Positions 13,018-15,004 of a stretch of 64,000 nucleotides of DNA are shown in pieces. Below the pieces are notes generated by a model, which had not been told where the DNA came from, made no database searches, and saw only the letters and a program-made list of their open reading frames with translations. Where the stretch lies: the NCBI RefSeq assembly GCF_000732485.2, contig NZ_JAQV02000015.1, forward strand, positions 186,001 to 250,000, in the 5' to 3' direction. Within the stretch, counting starts at the first letter, position 1, and every line of letters starts with the position of its first letter. Source of the stretch: Bacillus sp. SJS (GTDB lineage: Bacteria; Bacillota; Bacilli; Bacillales; Bacillaceae). The position numbers and the translations under genes are program-made.

Positions 13018-15004
13018 TTAACGAAGCAATTGAAGAACACCTTGTGGTTGTTGGTTGGCTTGCTTTGCCGCCATGCTTTTCAGCGATGGAATAGACTATA
13101 TCTTCATCCTTAAAAGTCTAAGGAGCTGGGCACTTCGAATGGCTGTTACCACCCTACGGATTTCATCGTCATGGTTTTCACTTTAGACGGTATATCCTAG
13201 TCGTTGAACCTTCTCCAGAGTTTCCTCACAGGAGCTTGGCTGCTGATTATCCAATCTTTCTTCTTTTCAGCCCTTCACGTCTGCCGTTTCCAGCTGCGTT
13301 GTGGGGAAGAAAGCTTAAGGAGGTTCCAGCAATTCACCCAGTTATAATCCAGCTCGTTACCAAGCGGGACGCCCTGCAATCATTATCTCAAAAGTTGTAA
13401 TACACCTTGAGGCATCTGATTGGATTGAGCCAGCATTGCTTGTGCTGCTTGAGAAAGAATAGAGTTCTTTGTTTGGTTCATCATTTCTTTCGCCATCGTG
13501 CGAACATTTACTTTCATAAATGACCAGACTATATCTTCACCCTCCGGAATTCCAGTAGGGGTCGGGCACTTCGGATTCACAATGCTGATGATCATTGCTT
13601 CACCTACGGATTTCATCACCATAGCTTGCGCCTTAGATGGTATATCCTAGTCGTTGAACCTTCTCCACTCTTTCGAGACAGGAGCTTGGCTGCTGATTGC
13701 CCAATCTCTTCTTTTTTTAAAGCCCTCACGTCTGCCGTTTCCGGCTGCGTTGTGGCAAGAAAAGCTTAAGGGGTTTCCAGCAATTCACCCGATTATGATC
13801 TCTAGCCGTTACCAGCTAGGACGACTGTGCTTGTCGCTGCTTATGCAGCTAAAGCATAATCTACGTCGCGAATACGAGATTCTGCGGCAGTTAGGTTTTC
13901 TGAAGATGTGCTTAGATTATTAATTGTGTGCTCTAAGCGGTTTTGATTTGCACCAAGTTTGGAGCGCTCAGCAGAAACTTTTTCAATAGCACTTTGAATA
14001 GCTGTTACTGCATTTCCTGCTTTTGTAGCAGTACTTACATCTAATGCATTTTCATTAGCTGTGTTATTTGTACCATCTGTTACAGTTGCACTTCCAGTGA
14101 AATTAGCTCCAGTTCCAGTAATTCCAAGTGCCGCTGCACGCATATCAGTAAAATCAAGAGTCATTGTTTGGTTTTGGTTAGCCCCTATTTGTGAGCTAAA
14201 TGATGATTTTGCAGACTCAGCTAATTTACCAGCAGTATTAGTACTTGGAGTTGCATTTGCAGTTGCACCAGTATCTGTCACAGAAGGTCCAGTCAATGAT
14301 TCTTGGCCTGTTTTTTGCACTAATGTTAAGTTATTACCTGCTACTGTAACGGTGTATTTAGCAGAAAGTGTAGCATTTCCATCAATTACAGTTTTTAAGT
14401 TAGCTGCTTGTGCTGCTGTAGTGTCAGAAGAAAAAACACCAGTTGTTGCATTTGTCATTGCAGTTGTTGCCTCAGCAGTAAAGGTTTGACCATCAATAGT
14501 GATAGTTTCACCATCTCCAAAGGCTGCACTTAGAGTTAATGTATAGTTACCCGCTACTGCAGAATTAGCAGCTGTTACAGAACCAGCACTAGCATTAAGT
14601 AGTTTTTGGCTATTAAATTCAGTAGTATTACCAATACGGTTAACTTCAGAAGTTAATTGGTTAATTTCCTTTTGGATTTCTCCACGATCTGTACCAGTGT
14701 TTGTATCATTACCTGCTTGAACAGCTAATTCACGCATACGTTGAAGGATGTCATGAGTCTCGTTTAAAGCGCCTTCTGCAGTTTGGATCATAGAGATAGA
14801 ATCTTGAGAGTTTCGAGCAGATTGATCTAAACCACGAATTTGTCCACGCATTTTTTCAGAAATAGCTAGACCTGCAGCATCATCACCGGCACGATTAATA
14901 CGCTGACCAGAAGACAGTTTCTCCATTGATTTACCTTGCGCTGTATTAGCAGATGAAAGCTGACGATAAGTGTTAAGCGCAGCAATATTATGATTAATTC
15001 TCAT
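13018..15004 (-). CDS. hag: Flagellin, interrupted by two group I introns
   Basis: Flagellin, the filament subunit exported by the flagellar type III system. Exon 1 (15004-13859, 382 codons) has the D0/D1 start [40 protein letters not shown] and a Thr/Ala-rich variable middle, ending at ESRIRDVD. Exon 2 (13496-13428, 23 codons) reads [23 protein letters not shown]. Exon 3 (13062-13018) reads [18 protein letters not shown]. Joined, they give 419 residues with the complete conserved C-terminal helix. Without intron 1 removal the reading stops five codons into the intron (YALAA), giving a protein without the C-terminal D0 helix. If intron 2 is retained the reading ends in [14 protein letters not shown], also 419 residues. 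Start ATG with GGGAGG; sigmaD promoter and CsrA sites upstream. Confidence 0.93.
13063..13427 (-). ncRNA. Group I intron 2 of hag (365 nt)
   Basis: Core elements in order: P AATTGCTGGAA (13324-13334), Q AATCAGCAGCCAAGC (13234-13248), R GTTCAACGACTAGGA (13195-13209), S AAGATATAGTC (13094-13104). A P9 hairpin (CCATCGCT-GAAA-AGCATGG) follows S, and the intron ends in G eight bases later. The 5' splice site follows a U (GCU|CAAUC). GCU pairs with GGC in the guide, with the U-G pair at the cut site, and CAAUC pairs with GAUUG to extend P1. The P1 loop holds 13 further flagellin codons and a stop (TAA at 13383-13385). Boundaries are fixed by the flagellin frame and agree with the RNA signals. Confidence 0.88.
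13497..13858 (-). ncRNA. Group I intron 1 of hag (362 nt)
   Basis: Core elements: P AATTGCTGGAAA (13774-13785), Q AATCAGCAGCCAAGC (13684-13698), R GTTCAACGACTAGGA (13645-13659), S AAGATATAGTC (13527-13537), then a P9 hairpin CATTTAT-GAAA-GTAAATG and a terminal G. The 5' splice site follows U (GAU|UAUGC). P1 pairs GAUUAUGC with GCACAGUC, giving U-G at the cut site and one A-C mismatch. Clearly related to intron 2 and of nearly the same length, so the two probably share an ancestor although they sit at different sites 23 codons apart. No open frame of note inside. Confidence 0.9.

Follow-up and report, generated by a model that had tools for sequence, protein, structure and literature searches.

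A group I intron in the flagellin gene of Bacillus sp. SJS carries an in-frame copy of the flagellin C terminus that may keep the unspliced mRNA productive

Group I introns have been described in the flagellin genes of thermophilic Bacillus and Geobacillus (Hayakawa and Ishizuka 2009, 2012; PMC3984707). In bacterial genes, group I introns can have stop codons in frame soon after the 5' splice site, and these are thought to keep ribosomes from interfering with the intron (PMC3984707). C.te.I1 is a group II intron in a surface-layer gene of Clostridium tetani, with four alternative splicing reactions and five distinct isoforms (PMC3919590). In the mitochondria of Glomus and Allomyces, C-terminal duplications of atp6, atp9, cox2 and nad3 are found with endonuclease open reading frames (PMC3630166).

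The flagellin gene (hag) of Bacillus sp. SJS lies in the window, the whole stretch of 64,000 nucleotides analysed here, which comes from a genome of 4.1 Mb. The gene and all of its parts described here are on the minus strand. Two group I introns split the coding region. Exon 1 (13859..15004) contains 1146 nt in 382 codons and ends in ..RIRDVD. Its junction was taken from G004, a genome assigned to the same species by the tool used, which lacks both introns and has only one hag ending. By that comparison GAT closes exon 1 at 13859 and ATG opens exon 2 at 13496, and this empty site gives the ends of intron 1 (13497..13858). Exon 2 (13428..13496) contains 69 nt in 23 codons (MAKEMM..AMLA), and its last codon is GCT at 13430-13428. 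Intron 2 (13063..13427) contains 365 nt. Its last base is G13063, 8 nt past the P9 hairpin, and the same spacing is found in intron 1. The covariance model Rfam RF00028 gave 93.4 bits for intron 1 and 71.6 bits for intron 2, both above its gathering score of 50. Exon 3 (13018..13062) encodes the final 14 residues, here called copy 2.

Intron 2 opens with a second in-frame version of this ending (copy 1, 13383..13427), which forms a predicted P1 extension. The two copies are identical at 29/45 nucleotides. When recomputed, the products with intron 2 spliced and retained contained 419 residues each and differed at two positions. The product with intron 1 retained contained 387 residues and stopped after five intron codons (YALAA), encoded with the stop in the first 18 nt of intron 1 (13841..13858). 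These results agree with an earlier note on this DNA, which had described the spare end, the two products of equal length and the truncation that follows failure to splice intron 1. Exon 3 could easily be overlooked in annotation because the frame through the intron resembles a normal complete gene. The in-frame 69-nt exon 2 is flanked by two related introns, and its skipping would give a flagellin without 23 residues. Exon skipping has been reported for phage Twort orf142 (PMC10136302).

Like C.te.I1, intron 2 is a bacterial self-splicing intron by type, and its unspliced transcript also encodes a protein isoform (PMC3919590). Unlike C.te.I1, it is a group I intron with one 3' exon seen, the two endings are near-identical, and the spare ending lies inside the intron. 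It resembles the Glomus and Allomyces elements in having a duplicated C terminus, of which the in-frame one is probably foreign, and a native end displaced downstream (PMC3630166). Those elements have an endonuclease gene close by; near intron 2 a relative of one is found in 20/62 loci. In the fungi, however, the native atp6 copy is reported to be unexpressed, whereas the hag ribozyme could splice copy 2 back. Both hag copies are also constrained, which suggests that the native end is not silent. We do not class intron 2 with the mobile C-terminus-carrying open reading frames of Allomyces and Glomus. Like the early stops in other bacterial group I introns, the stop in intron 2 lies past the 5' splice site; unlike them, it comes after a conserved ending of the host protein. 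Among the papers listed in our literature searches, no title or abstract describes a group I intron with a spare C terminus; an earlier description, for instance in the papers of Hayakawa and Ishizuka, is possible.

Bacterial ribosomes trail RNA polymerase at a short distance, and flagellin polymerises through a core to which its C terminus belongs. We consider it probable (about 80%) that the spare C terminus carried by intron 2 makes the unspliced mRNA productive. In this reading, intron 2 is a group I intron of the mobile type that sits 14 codons from the end of the flagellin gene and has its own in-frame copy of the displaced 14 residues between the 5' splice site and the guide. Where transcription and translation are coupled and a bacterial gene is strongly expressed, ribosomes can be expected to arrive before splicing. 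Such a ribosome would read copy 1, halt before the catalytic core and free a full-length flagellin. Splicing would join exon 2 (..GCU) to exon 3 (CAAGCC..), and the flagellin would then end in copy 2. Neither state would yield a truncated subunit, and the intron would be cheap either way. We infer from the sequences that intron 2 is spliced out, that the two proteins are both produced and can polymerise, and that copy 1 is kept because truncated flagellin is avoided. Two filament isoforms are a suggestion drawn from the two sequences only. The persistence of a self-splicing intron in a very highly expressed bacterial gene is a puzzle, and the answer seems to be encoded in the intron. The reading predicts that failure to splice intron 2 costs little.

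Comparative evidence places the predicted 5' splice site before copy 1, at 13428|13427, because the last exon codon is constrained and the guide that pairs with it lies after the copy-1 stop. The last codon of exon 2 is GCT, for alanine, in 84/85 unique intron-2 loci among the matches listed and TCT in one. It is GCT in 44/44 unselected intron-2 loci among the matches listed. The 57 unique loci with an empty site 2 carry GCT (33), GCG (14), GCA (8), GCC (1) or TCT (1). L062 and L122 were too short and are left out of the codon counts. GCU is predicted to pair with the GGC of a conserved GGGCGUC immediately 5' of P2. Unconstrained folding recovered the exon end as G-C, C-G and U.G in 68/83 unique P1 regions, the rest differing; L080, where no guide was found, is left out. 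The first exon-end pair is G.U in the clostridial loci L064, L121 and L145. In Sporosarcina L147 the exon ends in UCU and the guide reads GGGA, the only guide change seen alongside an exon-codon change. Pairing in L147 is preserved in the common register, with its own lowest-energy fold shifted by one base, and this is consistent with guide pairing without being proof of it.

The predicted fold in the window pairs GCUC (13430-13427) with the guide GGGC (13371..13374, read 13374-13371) and has U13428.G13373 at the splice site. Copy 1 at 13422-13417 is predicted to pair with UGAUUG (13377..13382) in a P1 extension helix, and the remainder of copy 1 forms a terminal hairpin. The P1 region of the window is no more stable than its shuffles (z -0.63), so the case for P1 rests on comparison among loci. 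There, copy 1 makes 7.8 pairs with its own post-stop strand and 5.9-6.5 when strands are swapped. Swapped strands also fold worse (mean -16.9 versus -18.9 kcal/mol for a locus's own). The 19 unusual copy-1 sequences make 8.0 pairs with their own strand and 4.8 with those of others. A P10 helix between exon 3 and the guide's 5' side was sought by eye, and nothing convincing was found.

Two sets of introns were compared. The selected set came from a core-sequence scan of genome contigs, which gave at least 119 stretches, and from a DNA search of 80 genomes of the family. Without demanding copy 1, we could assign at least 84 of its introns to hag site 2, and 84/84 have an intact 14-codon copy 1. 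Six introns were left unplaced; five cross a locus edge, and one (L091) is a degenerate remnant without upstream flagellin. A separate pattern-based search demanded VLQ or ILQ in copy 1, and its 87/87 and its pN/pS are partly by construction. Copy 2 was scored in 77/87 loci of this pattern set. L088, L130, L141 and L155 were left out because they cross an edge, and L064, L080, L096, L121, L140 and L145 were missed by the copy-2 expression, yet have copy 2. That expression demanded a preceding G, and its copy-2 counts are thus no test of the terminal G of the intron. Duplicate genes exist (L014 is identical to L068), and the pairing, swap, codon and tail counts use unique sequences.

The unselected set came from the Rfam model run over 249 genomes drawn evenly from the order, 93 of which have a match at E <= 1e-12. 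The matches listed cover 148 places, excluding the window's own two, and 146 of these have sequence. Among them, hag site 1 holds 45 introns and hag site 2 holds 44 (in 38 genomes), and 57 are elsewhere. At hag site 2, copy 1 is intact in 43/44 and copy 2 in 44/44 of the matches listed, and this retention of an in-frame copy 1 takes the spare C terminus beyond chance. Together the two sets hold at least 106 unique intact copy-1 sequences (L278 excluded) from Bacillales and some Clostridia. The pattern-derived part of these is again partly by construction; the 84/84 and the unselected counts are free of that. Since loci are related by descent, all such counts exceed the number of independent events.

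By record title, intron-2 loci occur in Bacillus, Metabacillus, Rossellomorea, Planococcus, Sporosarcina, Salimicrobium, Oceanobacillus, Geobacillus, Anoxybacillus, Brevibacillus, Clostridium gallinarum, Fusibacter and Thermohalobacter. The hag genes of Geobacillus, Parageobacillus and Anoxybacillus have introns at one or both sites. Within the genus of the window, 5/6 genomes have intron 2, every one with both copies; three of the five also have intron 1, and 1/6 has neither. The intron is thus present or absent at one and the same site, with 57 unique empty loci and 2 further loci too short to judge. Two records, L130 (titled Pseudomonas sp. ISL-84) and L063 (titled Paenibacillus sp. FJAT-29882), hold a Bacillus-like hag with introns at both sites and are possibly mislabelled or contaminated.

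Both copies vary in the manner of coding sequence. Over codons 6-14 of the unselected loci among the matches listed, copy 1 has a pN/pS of 0.14, or 0.18 when L278 is counted, and copy 2 has one of 0.19. When the frames of the same loci are shifted, the values become 0.60-0.72 and 5.4-7.2. For the set of at least 84, copy 1 again has a pN/pS of 0.14, and its shifted frames have 0.76 and 5.8. Overall the copies lie at 0.14-0.19, versus about 0.7-8 in shifted frames. Residues 9-13 are VLQLL in 43/44 copy 1 and 44/44 copy 2 sequences among the matches listed, with varied codons. The two copies also agree with each other at positions 8 and 14 in 69/75 unique pairs, versus 52-55 in five shuffles, counts that shared ancestry inflates. 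Some unusual endings appear in copy 1 and copy 2 alike: LLG in Alkalicoccus and Gracilibacillus, LLQ in Salimicrobium and Oceanobacillus, and AVL in Pseudalkalibacillus. Gene conversion could contribute to this agreement. By these measures copy 1 and copy 2 evolve as protein.

The constraint on both copies and the near-universal conservation in the unselected sample (among the matches listed) support the view of the earlier note that the intron is neutral to splicing. The survey of related hag genes for C-terminal codons at intron 5' ends, which it had proposed, found them intact in 43/44 unselected introns among the matches listed. Its placement of the spare end in the P1 loop is supported by the exon-codon constraint and the predicted guide pairing. 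The same two lines of evidence go against a 5' splice site after 13383, which it had named as adverse to its reading.

Three loci depart from the pattern. L278 (genome G130), at hag site 2, keeps the exon codon GCT, the guide, intron 2 and copy 2, and has lost the copy-1 frame; a P1 helix UUUCCA/UGGAAA is possible by eye. Since it keeps the intron and copy 2 in this state, copy 1 is dispensable in at least one lineage, and L278 offers a natural test case for obligate splicing. The second place in L230 (G228:C16:98569-98893) is an orphan intron-2-type core with no flagellin exon or copy 1 upstream. It has an intact copy 2 downstream, which adjoins a second, degenerate copy 2, and it is tallied among the 57 other places of the unselected set (among the matches listed). 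An intact copy 2 by itself is therefore no proof of use by splicing. L091 is likewise an orphan intron-2-type fragment without an upstream flagellin exon or copy 1, and its copy 2 lacks a stop.

In 7/8 genus comparisons, for which loci were picked by hand from record titles, the site-2-empty endings of the genus are closer to copy 2 than to copy 1, so the spare ending is likely to move together with the intron. In Planococcus, the clearest case, similarity to the empty-site ending is 0.79 for copy 2 versus 0.61 for copy 1. There the empty-site ending QANQAPQQVLQLLR is also copy 2 of L097, L109 and L124, while copy 1 of these loci is QSNQMTQSVLQLLR and differs from the host ending (MTQSV versus APQQV). 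The genus of the window is reversed, with 0.79 for copy 1 versus 0.71 for copy 2, measured on one divergent native reference. A LAGLIDADG_2 homing endonuclease gene lies convergent with hag on the plus strand of the window. It is divided between two reading frames that overlap, close to nine consecutive A (12410-12418). The N-terminal part (12115..12483) matches Pfam PF03161 at E 7.8e-05 with 23.1 bits, below the cut-off of 25, and the C-terminal part in the other frame (12383..13009) matches it at E 2.2e-06, above the cut-off. By position, both matches are in one frame in L004. In 20/62 intron-2 loci, counting only those with at least 1400 nt downstream, a relative of this gene is found no more than 2 kb past exon 3, and it is convergent in 20/20.

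Four other explanations bear on these data. The 5' splice site could lie past the copy-1 stop, in which case copy 2 would be untranslated 3' sequence and a single flagellin would be made. The Rfam model starts intron 2 at 13408, within copy 1; copy 1 by itself is a complete flagellin ending; and the L230 orphan has its intact copy 2 despite having no upstream exon. The Rfam start was rejected as a splice site on the GCT constraint and the guide pairing, which put the site before copy 1. An untranslated copy 2 would hardly be expected to keep 14 codons and a stop in 44/44 unselected loci, or a pN/pS of 0.19 versus 0.72 and 7.2 in its shifted frames (both among the matches listed), and a site after copy 1 would leave L278 without a flagellin ending. 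We regard this explanation as extremely improbable. We think it equally improbable that copy 1 replaced the C terminus in the manner of the Allomyces and Glomus atp6 elements and left copy 2 as a decaying relic. The native-like copy 2 in 7/8 genus comparisons and the convergent LAGLIDADG relative in 20/62 loci would suit such an element. A relic, however, would not be expected to be protein-constrained and intact in every unselected locus among the matches listed, and the intervening group I ribozyme could rejoin copy 2.

Copy 1 could also be retained solely as RNA for the P1 extension, its peptide being incidental. The predicted pairing with the strand past its stop fits this, as do its first five codons, the pairing part, where protein constraint is weaker (pN/pS 0.30-0.38). 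In the second half, PQGVLQLLR, most of the variation is silent, a constraint that is gone in shifted frames. L278 keeps a possible helix although it has lost the frame, so the peptide is not required by the ribozyme. We hold an RNA role by itself to be very unlikely. A regulated switch, in which temperature or a similar signal sets the splicing ratio and with it the C-terminal make-up of the filament, is permitted by the sequences, and temperature-dependent self-splicing is reported for flagellin introns of thermophiles (Hayakawa and Ishizuka 2012; PMC3984707). Most differences between the copies fall at positions 2 and 5, however, and their host-specific residues tend to match, which suggests selection for sameness; we hold the switch to be unlikely. 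A spare ending that keeps the unspliced mRNA productive is the reading we prefer to all four.

Retention of intron 1 gives a product that ends in DVD-YALAA. Among 95 unique homologous intron-1 tails, which use varied codons and come in two lengths, the last residue is A in 93 and the last two are AA in 87. At hag site 1 of the unselected set, 44/45 tails end in A and 41/45 in AA among the matches listed. The tail has a pN/pS of 0.40 over five codons and 0.30 over codons 4-5, with 1.2 and 0.85 in shifted frames (41 unique of 87). It looks base-paired, and its conservation may in part be due to RNA structure. We liken YALAA to the ssrA degradation tag of Escherichia coli, which we take to be a target of ClpX. 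That the tail is an ssrA-like tag is a tentative proposal, and the likeness is suggestive only. It is possible, though doubtful, that the P1 regions of both introns encode safeguards at the protein level, a C terminus in intron 2 and a degradation tag in intron 1. If so, truncated and possibly filament-poisoning flagellin would be destroyed by ClpXP-type proteases, and intron 1, which interrupts hag too early for a spare ending, would carry a tag instead.

An exact copy of the species' own tmRNA tag was considered for this tail and is unsupported, matches and mismatches being mixed. Tags were read in 19/23 tmRNA loci, one of them implausible (G002). The tag and the tail match in Geobacillus (GKQNYALAA/YALAA) and Aquibacillus (GKENNYSLAAA/YDLAAA). 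They do not match in the strain itself (GKTNNNLAVAA/YALAA), in Parageobacillus (GKENYALAA/YAFVA), in Halobacillus dabanensis (GESNENLAVAA/YDLAAA) or in four Planococcus or Planomicrobium (LAFAA/YAEAA or YTEAA). An Ala-Ala ending as a general rule for unspliced group I products was also rejected, with 14/57 non-hag tails ending in A and 3/57 in AA. These 57 tails (among the matches listed) include 35 unique ones, 8 of which end in A, and their frames were picked automatically and may err in some cases. Non-hag introns such as L251, L256, L269, L280, L291, L292 and similar ones have unspliced tails such as GGSRRGKSA and GGSR. From a motif, we take their host gene to be probably a ribonucleotide reductase gene.

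The window also encodes an LXG protein with pre-toxin and TNT domains (9366-11135, minus strand), which looks like a polymorphic toxin. It contains a c-di-GMP-I riboswitch (62713-62800, minus strand, 81.3 bits).
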